Below are positions 10,200 to 14,468 of a DNA stretch of 64,000 nt, piece by piece. Below the pieces are notes generated by a model. It saw only the letters and a program-made list of their open reading frames with translations, did no database searches and was not told the origin of the DNA. Every line of letters begins with the position of its first letter. Positions within the stretch are counted from its first letter, which is position 1. Source of the stretch: Bacteroidota bacterium (lineage in GTDB: Bacteria; Bacteroidota; Bacteroidia; B-17B0; Aurantibacillaceae); the NCBI GenBank assembly GCA_030692515.1, contig JAUXZS010000047.1:1-64000 (forward strand), read 5' to 3'. The position numbers were made by a program, and so were the translations under genes.

Positions 10200-10214
10200 G
10201 TTAGCGGTCATGCT
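10200..10214. repeat. Left arm of inverted repeat flanking the serine hydrolase gene
   Basis: GTTAGCGGTCATGCT lies just before the serine hydrolase gene. Its reverse complement, with one inserted base, occurs at 11676-11691 just after the stop codon. No target-site duplication or recombinase gene was found. Confidence 0.5.
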
Positions 10215-10239: not shown

Positions 10240-11676
10240 ATGAAATTTAATTTGACAATACTTTTGCTGTTAATTTACGTTTTGACCAATGCACAACAAA
10301 TTTCCAAGACAGATGAAATTTTTGTTGATAGTGTTATGAACTCATACTTTAAACCTAATGGACCTGGGGCGGTAATTTTAATTGCGAAAAAAGGAGTTCC
10401 TGTTCTAAAAAAAGCTTACGGTCTTGCTAATATTGAATTGAATGTTACTAATAAACCAGAATATGTTTTCAATATTGGCTCAATGTCAAAACAGTTTACC
10501 GCAATTTGTATTTTAAAACTCGCTCAGGACGGTAAACTTAAATTACAAGATGACATTAAAAAATATCTCATAGGCTATAACACACACGGACGAAATATTA
10601 CGATTGAAAATATACTCTATCACACAAGTGGTATATATAATTACTCCGACAAAGAAGATTTCTTTCCAAAGTCAGTCACAGACATATCGCCCGAAGATTT
10701 AAAAAAATCATTCATGAATGATTCGTTATTTTTCGAACCGAATTCAAATTGGAGCTATTGTAATTCGGGCTATGTGTTAGCAGGTTTAATAGTTGAAAAA
10801 GTTTCAGGAAAATCATTAGCTGAATTTCTGACAGAAAATATTTTTAAACCTTACGAAATGAAAAATAGTTTCGTTGGAAATGACGATAGCGTTTTTGTTA
10901 ATTCAGTTAACGGTTATGACAATGTTCAAGGTTTAGAAAATACTTTTGAAACAAAATATAAACCTGCTCAATTTATGAGTTGGACATTTTCTTATGGCGC
11001 AGGCGGCATCATTTCAATAGTTGACGATCTTTTAAAATATAATAATGCTCTTCTATCCGGAAAAATTCTTAAAAAAGAATGGTTAGAAAAAGCTTGGACT
11101 CCTTGTGTTTTACCTAATGGCAAATCGACAAATTATGGATTTGGTTGGGCAGTTGGAAATTATCAAGGTTTAAAATTTGTAGCGCACGGCGGTGGACTAA
11201 ACGGTTTCCGTTCTTATGGAGTTCTTTTCCCGAATGAGCAATTGTATGTTGCTGTTCTATCAAACACAAGTGCAAAAACTCCTGTAACATATGCTTCACC
11301 AATCGCTTTTAAATTAGCTGGTAAACCTTTACCAAAATTAGAAGAGATTACAATTGTAAAAAAAATACTAGATGAATATAAAGGGGTTTATGTAATTAAT
11401 TCCCCTGCGCATGACTTTCTGCCAACAGAAAGGTATATAACTATTAAGGACAACAAGCTATTTGCGCAGTTAAAAGAAGGAGACGAACTTGAGGACGCAG
11501 TTGAACTATTTACTATTGACAAAGACTTTTTTGGAAGAAAAAATAGCCCTCAGTGTTTTCAATTCATTAGAGACAAAAAAGGTAAAGTAATTTCAATTGA
11601 GGTTTTCAATTCGCCAATTCAATACGGACCTTACGAAACAAACATTAAGACTGACAAACAACTGCCTACAAAATAA
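10240..11676 (+). CDS. Beta-lactamase-fold serine hydrolase (class C/ penicillin-binding-protein-like), secreted
   Basis: This protein has 478 aa from ATG 10240; the frame opens at 10210, but the later ATG begins a signal peptide (MKFNLTILLLLIYVLTNAQ). The beta-lactamase/AmpC-like fold is shown by Ser81-x-x-Lys84 (GSMSKQF), Tyr173-x-Asn175 (SYCNSGY) and His316-Gly-Gly-Gly (AHGGG, replacing KTG). A C-terminal extension of about 130 residues follows. The family includes D-aminopeptidases, esterases and peptidoglycan enzymes; the substrate cannot be read from the sequence, and drug resistance should not be assumed. The gene is bracketed by an inverted repeat (10200-10214 and 11676-11691) and borders a repeat-rich stretch, so it may be acquired (inference). 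Confidence 0.87.
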   Translation: MKFNLTILLLLIYVLTNAQQISKTDEIFVDSVMNSYFKPNGPGAVILIAKKGVPVLKKAYGLANIELNVTNKPEYVFNIGSMSKQFTAICILKLAQDGKLKLQDDIKKYLIGYNTHGRNITIENILYHTSGIYNYSDKEDFFPKSVTDISPEDLKKSFMNDSLFFEPNSNWSYCNSGYVLAGLIVEKVSGKSLAEFLTENIFKPYEMKNSFVGNDDSVFVNSVNGYDNVQGLENTFETKYKPAQFMSWTFSYGAGGIISIVDDLLKYNNALLSGKILKKEWLEKAWTPCVLPNGKSTNYGFGWAVGNYQGLKFVAHGGGLNGFRSYGVLFPNEQLYVAVLSNTSAKTPVTYASPIAFKLAGKPLPKLEEITIVKKILDEYKGVYVINSPAHDFLPTERYITIKDNKLFAQLKEGDELEDAVELFTIDKDFFGRKNSPQCFQFIRDKKGKVISIEVFNSPIQYGPYETNIKTDKQLPTK

Positions 11677-11691
11677 GCATGAACCGCTAAC
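11676..11691. repeat. Right arm of inverted repeat flanking the serine hydrolase gene
   Basis: AGCATGAACCGCTAAC starts on the last base of the hydrolase stop codon. It is the inverted partner of 10200-10214, matching over 15 bases with one extra base. The pairing distance (about 1.46 kb) is exactly one gene. Confidence 0.5.
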
Positions 11692-11697
11692 AGCAAC

Positions 11698-11981
11698 CTC
11701 GCTCTGCGGAATTTGTAATTCGGTGGCACAAAGATTCCGGAGGAGCCAACCATTTCCAAAAACCATAAACCAATCTTATTGCCTGAGAGAGGCAAGACCA
11801 CACACAATGTTTGTCTCCTAACGGAGCCATAAAATCTCTTTTCAATCTATTCTATAATATTTTGTCCCTACGGGACAAATTAAAAACCACACTTTCTTTA
11901 GCCCGAAATCGTTAATAGTGAGTTATAGCGGCGTATTATTAGCTAATCCCTAATTACTCTTAACCCTTCTAATCCCTTCCG
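11698..11981. repeat. Hairpin-mosaic direct repeat, copy A (about 285 bp)
   Basis: This non-coding block recurs at 12835-13119 with roughly 85% identity by eye. It is a chain of small stem-loops: a degenerate palindrome around 11703-11726, TTGCCT-GAGAG-AGGCAA (11779-11795), CTCC-TAAC-GGAG (about 11816-11827), and TTTGTCCC-TAC-GGGACAAA (11861-11879). An AT-rich tail contains CGAAATCGTTAATAGTGA. It fills the gap after the serine hydrolase. No credible protein is encoded; the open frame across 11597-11821 is chance. Copies A and B flank the outer-membrane protein gene. Confidence 0.8.
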
Positions 11982-11983
11982 TT

Positions 11984-12006
11984 CCGCAGAATTTATAATT
12001 CTGCGG
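11984..12006. repeat. Perfect 10-bp-arm palindrome (CCGCAGAATT family)
   Basis: CCGCAGAATT and AATTCTGCGG flank a TAT loop. The same palindrome with a TGT loop is at 12841-12863, and degenerate relatives are at about 11703-11726 and 12802-12822. The bases after it (CACAAAAGTTCTTAAGGAA) match those after the palindrome at the start of copy B, so this is the beginning of a further, truncated repeat unit. REP-like elements mobilised by RAYT-type transposases look like this, but no such transposase is in the window. Confidence 0.75.
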
Positions 12007-12082
12007 CACAAAAGTTCTTAAGGAATCAACCATTTCCGCAAGACGAAAAACGCTTTGTTAGACAAAATACTTACTAACCATT

Positions 12083-12730
12083 TTACTCGATGACTTGCGA
12101 TTGCTTGGTACCTGAGGCTTTAAAACTTATTTGACGGCTAACAGCAAGAACGATACTTCTATTGTAAACTTGATGAGAAGTTCCCGGTAATTGTTTTCTA
12201 ACTGGAAGAAGTGAGTGAATCAATCGCACTCCTACACGCCACTTTTCATTAAATACGTAACCAGTACCTAGATTAAAAGTAAAGTCTTTATTACTAAAGG
12301 GATAAAGGTCTGTTTGGAAAGGAAACGCTCCTCTGTCCGTATATTCTCCAGTATTGATTAATGCTGCTAATGCCGGACCAAATTCAAAGTAACCTTGTTT
12401 CTTGTTATATTGAAAGAGGATTGGGACTTCAAAGTAAGATAGACGTAAAAAATAATCGCCATAATTGGATTTACCTTGATTGTTTCCCGCGGTTCCTTTG
12501 CCAATCATACTTAGCTCAGACTGCATAGTCCACTTTTTACTTATTTTTATCTGAACCCACATTCCACCCAACAAGGCAGGTTTTGGATGAGTTTTTACGG
12601 GATATCCTGTAATAGTGTGCATTCCTAAACCTAATTTAAGCCCAACTTTACATTGAGTTTTTAATTTACTTTGAGAACAAACATCAATACAAATAATTGA
12701 CATGACAAAAAAAATGAAAAGCTTTTTCAC
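12083..12730 (-). CDS. Outer-membrane beta-barrel protein (porin-family, OMP_b-brl-like)
   Basis: This protein has 215 aa from GTG 12730. The frame is open further upstream to 12886 but that part runs into the repeat block, whereas the GTG starts a signal peptide (VKKLFIFFVMSIICIDVCSQ). The mature part has alternating hydrophobic strands and typical segments (KVGLKLGLGMHTI, MQSELSMIGKG, YFEVPILFQYN, FEFGPALAALI), like the small eight-stranded barrels common in Bacteroidota. No ligand can be inferred. The gene sits alone between two copies of a 285-bp hairpin repeat, which raises the possibility of a mobile or duplicated segment. Confidence 0.8.
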   Translation of the reverse strand: MKKLFIFFVMSIICIDVCSQSKLKTQCKVGLKLGLGMHTITGYPVKTHPKPALLGGMWVQIKISKKWTMQSELSMIGKGTAGNNQGKSNYGDYFLRLSYFEVPILFQYNKKQGYFEFGPALAALINTGEYTDRGAFPFQTDLYPFSNKDFTFNLGTGYVFNEKWRVGVRLIHSLLPVRKQLPGTSHQVYNRSIVLAVSRQISFKASGTKQSQVIE

Positions 12731-12834
12731 TTGTAATAAACGGAGTTTGCGTTGAAAAATTGTTACTGTCCAGAGAAAATATATGCCTGCAGACATCGGC
12801 ACAGCAGAATTTATAATTGTGCAGGATTGTGGTT

Positions 12835-13119
12835 CTCGCTCCGCAGAATTTGTAATTCTGCGGCACAAAGGTTTCGAAGGAATCAACCAATTCTAAAAAC
12901 CATAAACCAATCTTATTGCCTCCGAGAGGCACGACCATACTAAATGTTTGACTCCTAACGGAGCCGTAAAATCTCTTTTCAATCTATTCTATAATATTTT
13001 GTCCCTACGGGACAAATTAAAAACGGCACTTTCTTTAGCCCGAAATCGTTAATAGTGATTCATAGCAGCTTACTATTAACTAATTCCTATTAACTCTTAA
13101 CCCTTCAAATCCTTTCCAT
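12835..13119. repeat. Hairpin-mosaic direct repeat, copy B (about 285 bp)
   Basis: This is the second copy of the block at 11698-11981, same orientation. It begins CTCGCT plus the perfect palindrome at 12841-12863, then TGCCTC-CGA-GAGGCA, CTCC-TAAC-GGAG, TTTGTCCC-TAC-GGGACAAA (12998-13016) and the shared tail (CGAAATCGTTAATAGTGA). A degenerate palindrome lies just before it at 12802-12822. Hairpin arms are conserved between copies while several linkers differ. The stretch 13120-13186 after it holds nothing recognisable. Confidence 0.8.
12841..12863. repeat. Perfect palindrome at the start of copy B
   Basis: CCGCAGAATT and AATTCTGCGG flank a TGT loop, identical in both arms to the palindrome at 11984-12006. 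It lies 9 bases after a degenerate version and at the same place in the unit as the degenerate copy at 11703-11726. Confidence 0.75.
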
Positions 13120-13186
13120 TGCTCACATTCCCCAACAATTAACATAATAAGGCTAAAGAAAATAGTTTTATTGTTAATAAATTGTT

Positions 13187-13194
13187 TACATTTG
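13187..13194 (+). promoter_or_regulatory. Candidate -7 box for the RhlE-type helicase gene
   Basis: TACATTTG is an exact match to TAnnTTTG. It would start a transcript near 13200 with a leader of about 138 nt before the ATG at 13338. A long leader is common for cold-induced RNA helicase genes. No well-spaced TTG at -33 was found. Confidence 0.4.
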
Positions 13195-13337
13195 CGTACT
13201 TCTTTAGAAGATTGTATCTCAATCACGTTTGTAACACCTTAATTGCAATTCGATAAATTTTACACTTTTCTTAGATTAACAAAAAAAGTGCGTGACGAAA
13301 TCTCATGCTAAAATTTATATTAACGAAAAAACAATTA

Positions 13338-14468
13338 ATGACATTTTCAAACTTAAAACTTATTAAGCCACTAGTTCTGGCATTAGACAAAAAAGGGTAT
13401 ACACAACCCACACCAATTCAAGAACAATCCATCCCACATATTTTAGAAGGAAGAGATATTTTTGGTTGCGCGCAAACAGGTACAGGTAAAACAGCAGCAT
13501 TTGCATTACCAATTTTACAATTATTATCAGAAAGAAAAACAAATCAAAATCCACGCCCTATTAAAGCGCTTATTTTAGCGCCAACCCGCGAATTAGCTTC
13601 ACAAATAAGTGAGAATTTTGCGGCCTATGGCAACAATTTAGGGATTTCGCATTGCACAATATTTGGCGGCGTATCACAAGGTCCACAGGTTAATAATTTA
13701 AGAAGAGGTGTTGATGTTTTAATAGCAACACCGGGTCGCTTATTAGACCTTATGAACCAGGGATTTATAAAACTACACAATATTGAATTTTTTGTATTAG
13801 ATGAAGCAGATCGCATGCTAGATATGGGCTTTATTAATGATATTAAAAAAATCATTCCTAAACTTCCAGCTAAACGTCAGACTTTATTTTTCTCTGCTAC
13901 AGCGGCTCCGGATATTATGAAATTAGCAAATACTATCCTTAAAGAGCCTGTAAGTGTAACGGTTAACCCGGTTTCTTCAACAGCAACTTTGGTAACGCAA
14001 ACCGTTTATTATGTTAAAAAAGAGAATAAACGTGGATTGTTAAAATTTGTACTAAGTAACGGTAAAATTGAGCATGCTCTGGTTTTTACTCGTACTAAGC
14101 GTGGAGCAGACAGAGTTGCAAAGGATTTGAACAGCATGGGGGTTTCGGCAGAAGCAATTCATGGTAATAAATCTCAAGGTGCAAGAGAAAGAGCATTAAA
14201 AGGTTTTAAGAACAGAACTATTCGTATATTAGTAGCCACAGATATTGCATCTAGAGGAATTGATGTAGACAAATTATCACACGTAATTAACTACGAAATT
14301 CCTGAGCAGGCAGAAACTTATGTTCACCGTATTGGAAGAACAGGTAGAGCCGGCGAATCTGGAGTAGCAATGTCGTTTTGTACACATGAAGAAATGCCAT
14401 ATTTAAAAGACATAAATAAATTAATAAAGAAAAATATTGAGGTTGTATCTACTCATCCATTTAATTAA
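13338..14468 (+). CDS. DEAD-box ATP-dependent RNA helicase, RhlE type
   Basis: This protein has 376 aa. ATG 13338 is preferred to 13305 because the family begins at the TFSNLKLIKP segment. The helicase motifs are complete: Q motif (GYTQPTPIQ), motif I AQTGTGKT (45-52), Ia PTRELA, GG, TPGRLLD, motif II DEAD (155-158), motif III SAT, and motif VI HRIGRTGRAG. The chain ends soon after the second RecA domain, without the basic tail often seen in longer relatives. It unwinds structured RNA in ribosome assembly, mRNA decay or cold adaptation. A cold-shock protein gene follows 73 bases later, supporting a cold-response role (inference). Confidence 0.94.
   Translation: MTFSNLKLIKPLVLALDKKGYTQPTPIQEQSIPHILEGRDIFGCAQTGTGKTAAFALPILQLLSERKTNQNPRPIKALILAPTRELASQISENFAAYGNNLGISHCTIFGGVSQGPQVNNLRRGVDVLIATPGRLLDLMNQGFIKLHNIEFFVLDEADRMLDMGFINDIKKIIPKLPAKRQTLFFSATAAPDIMKLANTILKEPVSVTVNPVSSTATLVTQTVYYVKKENKRGLLKFVLSNGKIEHALVFTRTKRGADRVAKDLNSMGVSAEAIHGNKSQGARERALKGFKNRTIRILVATDIASRGIDVDKLSHVINYEIPEQAETYVHRIGRTGRAGESGVAMSFCTHEEMPYLKDINKLIKKNIEVVSTHPFN

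Follow-up and report, generated by a model that had tools for sequence, protein, structure and literature searches.

The hairpin repeats associated with Y1 (HUH) transposase-like proteins are known as REPs, REPINs, BIMEs and TIRtrons. In Bacteroidetes, REP/RAYT subclass 2.6 (Bertels group 5) comprises hairpins that flank the transposase gene and recur in the genome, with proteins bearing the motifs NH[LIV]H, WQ and YIH[QN]NP, and its structures are called atypical (PMC6006769). REPINs (PMC3116915) and BIMEs (PMC6006769) are inverted pairs of hairpin repeats found between genes and in arrays beside a transposase gene, and TIRtrons combine Y1 genes (TIRYT) with nearby inverted, hairpin-bearing repeats (PMC3733652); 20 of 26 TIRYT proteins belong to subclass 2.1 (PMC6006769). 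TnpA-Y1 subclass 1.2, whose signature is Y---Q--HH, is described as an IS200 relative without the properties of an insertion sequence and generally without typical IS200 terminal structures, and the 2018 table lists no REPs for it (PMC6006769). In the literature searched, as represented by titles, abstract starts and passages, no statement assigning repeats to subclass 1.2 was found. REP-like repeats in Flavobacterium are already on record, two genomes of that genus being tabulated in a REP survey (PMC12306157).

The window, the whole 64-kb stretch analyzed here, is part of contig C53 of a 4.33 Mb genome in 68 contigs, and contains two repeat units, each of which is most probably a relic stack of two kinds of hairpin repeat of Y1 transposase-like proteins, inherited and duplicated around a gene. 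The palindrome of the unit, P1, would be a REP of the RAYT kind, and the hairpin pairs H2-H3 and H4-H5 would be dimers of the type adjoining many subclass 1.2 genes; the double-hairpin repeat of this subclass is filed here as a variant of the known kinds. For the window itself the answer is a modest one: old repeat debris, and no new mobile element.

Unless stated otherwise, features are given on the forward strand. Units A (11698..11988) and B (12835..13125) are 291 nt long and align without gaps at 88% identity. The first-pass annotation was right that the two repeats are real, that they share one ordered set of hairpins (the palindrome, TTGCCT/AGGCA, CTCC/GGAG and TTTGTCCC/GGGACAAA), and that they flank an outer-membrane protein gene, a beta-barrel protein of family PF13568 encoded between them on the reverse strand (12083..12733). 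P1 lies at 11704..11726 in A, where its alignment to B and to the relative G012 shows a degenerate REP unlisted in scans allowing 3 mismatches, and at 12841..12863 in B, where it carries the 5' tag GCTC and belongs to the family that brackets RAYT genes in relatives. The extra copies of the first palindrome said to adjoin both repeats are also present, one at 11984-12006 immediately 3' of A and a degenerate one with 3 mismatches at 12802..12824, shortly before B. The former lies in a partial third copy, C (11980..12036), which abuts A, consists of P1 and a degenerate H2, and is 88% identical to B. An additional hairpin, H2, sits between the palindrome and the TTGCCT hairpin; it reads GGTTCCGGAGGAACC in G012 and G035 and is degenerate in the window (11733..11747 in A and, from the alignment of the units, 12870..12884 in B). 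H3 (TTGCCT/AGGCAA in A), placed by repeat search and alignment, occupies 11779..11795 and 12916..12932. On the reverse strand follow the paired-hairpin dimers H5-H4 (11811..11878 and 12944..13015), and then the tails, 11881..11983 in A and 13018..13120 in B, which are identical at 89 of 103 positions. The palindrome pattern gave 5 matches against 0 in 100 shuffles; for the GTCCC hairpin there were 4, where shuffles average 0.11. The suggestion that hairpin arms are conserved while linkers differ fails on the count, the five hairpin segments being identical between A and B at 82 of 95 positions and the three linkers at 74 of 80. The linker between H4 and H5 is unchanged (30/30), and the more altered parts include the palindrome region 11702-11726 (21/25) and H2 (11/15).

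P1, the 23-nt palindrome CCGCAGAATT, is intergenic and multi-copy, as are REPs of the RAYT type. It has 20 sites in its own genome at up to 3 mismatches and 14 at up to 2, the reversed control pattern having none, and all 13 sites checked outside the window lie outside ORFs of at least 100 aa. Across the genus the family is present in 18 of 40 genomes, and the control matches none. Most copies share a 5' GCTC or GTTC tag, with GCTC in 46 of 61 copies when the search pattern held the tag and allowed up to 3 mismatches; this is not the canonical tetranucleotide GTAG/GTGG of REPs (PMC6006769). Both free stem pairs of the palindrome are Watson-Crick in 49 of the 61 copies, with several pair types, and in 40 of 52 distinct copies against a shuffle mean of 16.7 and a maximum of 30; in most copies of the own genome one G-C pair has been swapped for A-T. 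In three relatives (G036:C26, G019:C12 and G002:C136) an inverted pair of P1-type palindromes brackets a RAYT-type Y1 gene, and the versions of P1 found there differ from one another by compensatory changes. A fourth pair, at G036:C8 (L199), surrounds a gene with a short frame of 103 aa for which the RAYT motif listing gave no row, and at G026:C209 two such palindromes stand beside a broken RAYT-type gene. The two proteins tested against NCBIfam, those of G002 and G036:C26, are REP-associated tyrosine transposases above the cut-off. Like the hairpins of subclass 2.6, P1 both flanks transposase genes and recurs in the genome, and the motifs of the bracketed proteins, NH[IL]H, WQ and YIH(N/Q/E)NP, are near those of that subclass (PMC6006769). 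The own genome has four matches to the Y1 family PF01797, two on C58, one on C54 and a truncated IS200-type gene on C57. None is on C53, in agreement with the earlier statement that no transposase is present beside the unit. P1 may be an orphan in its own genome, since the palindrome beside the C54 RAYT is of another kind and no P1-bracketed RAYT was seen in the assembly.

The second kind of repeat is a dimer, a pair of short stems 29-38 nt (about 34) apart, which occurs in both orientations. An array of such hairpins lies immediately upstream of the own Y1 gene at C58, and by shared neighbors (upstream in G026, G012 and G019, downstream in G035; judged by eye) this type of gene with its array occupies one chromosomal place in five genomes. 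A covariance model, R1, was built from 12 dimers beside Y1 genes in the C58 array, G012, G026 and G035, and none from the window; the other four of the 16 dimers collected have a three-base first loop and misaligned. R1 finds H4-H5 in both units at E about 4e-6 (39.2 bits and 4.3e-6 in A, 39.0 bits and 4.7e-6 in B), the second-best score in the window being 16.6 bits. The window copies of H2-H3 give no R1 match even unfiltered. They are assigned as a dimer because R1 finds their counterparts in G012, G026 and G035, and H2-H3 and H4-H5 are probably two facing copies of one dimer. In the own genome, where the best 150 of 13737 initial candidates were scored, at least 29 dimers (E <4e-4; next E 0.42) occur at no fewer than 10 places, and 11 of the 29 listed, at least one per place, lie outside ORFs of at least 80 aa. 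The H4-H5 repeat is found both beside a transposase gene and dispersed, as in REPtron-like systems. In 58 R1 matches both sides change in 11 of 12 stem pairs, where shuffles give 5.4 such pairs and slid partners no more than 4; the alignment was, however, fitted to R1, and the count leans towards the model. Inverted hairpin-repeat pairs, their intergenic position and arrays beside a transposase gene are shared with REPINs and BIMEs, from which the present repeat differs in that its basic unit consists of two hairpins (72 model positions) and has few copies. The dimers face [+ -] in the window and in the orthologous gap of relatives, and the first two face [- +] at six other places of the own genome outside the C58 array, so that either arrangement is at most a candidate mobile unit. 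A reading of H2-H3 and H4-H5 as the ends of one transposon minus its gene was not adopted, given the opposite facing at those six places.

At a second locus, on C19, R1 finds dimers in the own genome and in G012, G021, G019 and G035. It finds none in G006 or G007, whose flanks are separated by 12 and 29 bp; the corresponding distances in the own genome are about 257 and 277. Of the 15 loci displayed, the gap is empty in G006 and G007 and holds, by eye, unrelated sequence in G026 and seven others. The C19 dimers show a presence/absence pattern, one that falls short of insertion proof.

Hairpin pairs of this form adjoin many genes of subclass 1.2, a protein family that had been reported without them. 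Among the 32 strong Y1 genes taken from the genus, 27 have a readable Y---Q--HH signature; the 32 were drawn from 67 Y1 matches by leaving out four truncated strong ones and the weak ones, many of which were examined in the RAYT and neighborhood checks. By a rule that calls for a pair 24-44 nt apart and at most 170 nt from the gene, a hairpin pair adjoins 16 of these 27 genes with a readable signature, as against 1 of 43 control ORFs and a shuffle mean of 0.02. Across the class, where 111 of 198 genomes matched and 27 of 29 loci were used (two lack a readable frame; of those used, L274 at least is interrupted upstream), a pair is near 14 of 27 genes, with shuffles, the sole control, giving 0. 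In a collection of named genomes (76 of 80 loci, four with short flanks having been dropped) a pair is present at 36 of 76 loci and in 1 of 144 control windows 1.2 kb away; 11 of 76 have no hairpin by the same rule, and the signature is readable at 66 and lacking at 10. These counts are non-independent, with many orthologues at one place and overlap between the class-wide and named samples: L328 and L379 apparently duplicate entries of the genus count, from G012 and G029, and the flank of L387 is also in the class-wide sample. The C58 protein is an IS200/IS605-family transposase by NCBIfam, and its nearest named matches are from Bacteroidota. An HUH-Y1 transposase is common to this system and IS200/IS605 elements, and hairpin pairs flank both sides of the gene in only 4 of the 76 named loci. 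With TIRtrons the system has in common Y1 genes that lie near inverted repeats bearing hairpins. IS200/IS605 elements have non-autonomous derivatives. The window unit differs from IS200/IS605 in having no transposase gene between its ends, and the C58-type gene in keeping with its array to one chromosomal place. The first-pass view of the unit as a composite of several REP-like elements, and not a simple insertion sequence, stands, each main component belonging to a family tied to Y1 transposases. Compared with subclass 1.2 as published, the genes here have the same signature and differ by their adjoining paired hairpins, which recur intergenically (PMC6006769). What results is a concrete, covarying candidate substrate for a transposase subclass that had none in its defining paper (PMC6006769), with subclass 1.2 repeats in genera such as Flavobacterium that have named isolates.

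The gap in which the units lie is bordered on the left by a tricorn-protease-like gene (PF14684, PF03572; 6827..10180) and on the right by a DEAD-box helicase gene (PF00270, PF00271; 13305..14468), which B adjoins. Two genes now in it, for a beta-lactamase-fold serine hydrolase (PF00144; 10210..11676) and for the outer-membrane protein, are not in the gap of six relatives. The orthologous gap of G012 has one set, the palindrome with H2-H5; that of G026 has the palindrome, H2 and H3; that of G035 has H2-H5 and part of another set, without the palindrome; and that of G019 has part of the tail sequence only. No part of the unit was found in the gaps of G006 and G021. R1 scores two dimers in the gap of G012, three in G035 and one in G026 (26 to 39 bits), and finds none in those of G006, G019 and G021. 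This distribution bears on an improbable alternative, that the hairpins function chiefly as RNA elements or regulators (terminators, stabilizers of mRNA ends, promoters) under selection at this gap. REPs elsewhere are reported to terminate transcription or stabilize mRNA (PMC6006769), the hairpins here are likewise intergenic, and 11600-13400 contains 11 promoter-like matches where shuffles average 5.3 (sd 2.2), one match recurring at the equivalent position of each unit. Selection at the gap accords poorly with the dimers' absence from three relatives and with the decay of P1 and H2 in the window, and terminator-like sites are no more frequent than in shuffles (1 against 1.5). An RNA element was rejected as a candidate on these terminator counts and on the lack of any Rfam family in the window at gathering scores, although promoter-like matches exceed the shuffles.

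The distribution of the whole unit, as distinct from its parts, argues against a further, highly improbable reading, in which the unit of 285 bp is a composite MITE-like mobile element inserted twice around the gene. Two copies with a fixed order of parts, and components that are dispersed, would suit it. Searched with B, however, the own genome has full-length matches only at A and B, the remainder being short matches to single parts (best 40 of 45 candidates). Matches above 60 nt outside it are confined, among the 40 genomes of the genus (own included), to G012, G035 and G026, all in the tricorn/DEAD gap, in a search that scored at most the best 18 candidates per genome and that a divergent copy elsewhere could escape. 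A wider search of 60 relatives (at most the best 6 candidates per genome) added only the tail sequence of G019, in the same gap. The order of parts and the tree also fit inheritance plus duplication, and the composite element was set aside within the candidates scored. The whole unit is not a dispersed element, no unrelated site having turned up among the candidates scored in the own genome and 39 other genomes of the genus. Uniqueness to these two sites, which the first-pass annotation had equated with a local duplication, was found for the whole unit and not for its hairpins, which are dispersed. That the unit is simply a tandem duplication of unique sequence unlinked to mobile DNA is scarcely credible, for although the full unit was found only at two sites, P1 (14 sites at up to 2 mismatches, reversed control 0) and the dimers (at least 10 places) are scattered through the genome and linked to Y1 genes.

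The pair A and B most plausibly arose when one ancestral stack was duplicated locally. In an unrooted tree of the two flanking proteins, the own genome and G012 stand opposite G026, G035 and a clade of G006, G019 and G021 (99% support). On this tree the most economical history has a single stack in the ancestor and its loss from the G006-G019-G021 clade. Its common presence at one orthologous place suggests that the stack was in the tricorn/DEAD gap before the split from G012, G026 and G035, and would have been inherited and have decayed there. A and B are closer to each other (88%) than to G012 (79-81%), which makes it probable that they were duplicated once the G012 lineage had diverged.

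What is observed is that the parts are kin in sequence to Y1-adjacent repeats, that they are dispersed and covary, and that two loci have them in some genomes and lack them in others; the events behind the relic stack are a proposal. If they act like TnpA-REP of E. coli and its relatives (PMC8266576), Y1 proteins would recognize single-stranded hairpins and, working in trans, copy or transfer them to sites between genes. In the own lineage, the stack would have been duplicated after the G012 split, leaving the outer-membrane gene flanked by the two copies. Short P1-H2 repeats might conceivably have recombined, producing the duplication and placing the gene there, a route suggested by the presence of such repeats (C and the start of B) at the borders of the inserted gene. 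On this reading, repeats of distinct families accumulate in a single gap between genes, where they are passed on, become duplicated and come to be associated with the gain of genes. The balance tips slightly towards a broader proposal, that subclass 1.2 is the protein half of a double-hairpin system widespread in Bacteroidota, whose repeats would spread in trans, form arrays and, in stacks mixed with RAYT-type REPs, act as recombination sites for gene gain.

Several smaller observations concern the genes of the gap and the other repeat sites. Relatives of the outer-membrane gene occur in 10 genomes at 11 loci (L107-L117), mostly in different surroundings, L112 and L113 having one flank in common; a tRNA gene lies within about 400 bp in 4 of the 11, and the gene looks as if it were a single-gene mobile unit. 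This gene and its neighbor might conceivably form an integron-type cassette, inverted GTTAG/CTAAC motifs flanking the beta-lactamase-fold gene, but in the own genome 20 matches to the integron-integrase family all fall below its cut-off. On either side of the beta-lactamase-fold gene, at 10200-10213 and 11677-11691, stand the inverted motifs GTTAGCGGTCATGC and GCATGAACCGCTAAC. A search for a GTTAG/CTAAC pattern hit only one of these sides, and 17 shuffles in 100 also produced a hit. Among the own P1 sites, L060, L063, L064 and L066 often adjoin repeat-like stretches (GTCATTGCGACGAAGGAAGCAATCTC; TTAGTAAACGTTTTGTTATA; and a longer one, AAGCCTTGACTTTT), and such intergenic gaps seem to gather several repeat families. 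At G000:C57:1-600 (L070) the truncated IS200-type transposase gene adjoins a frame that by eye resembles an IS3-type OrfA. The DEAD-box helicase gene is preceded by a leader of ~100 nt (13199-13300, CTTCTTTAGAAGATTGTATCTCAATCACG...) that by eye is nearly unchanged in six relatives, in which the sequence before it is not conserved; the leader has no Rfam match and is possibly a regulatory 5' leader. Finally, the tricorn/DEAD gaps of G012, G026 and G006 (L118, L121 and L122) have a further stretch in common, GCGTTAGGGATTG...GCGGAAATCC...GCCCGGGC..., which varies among them.
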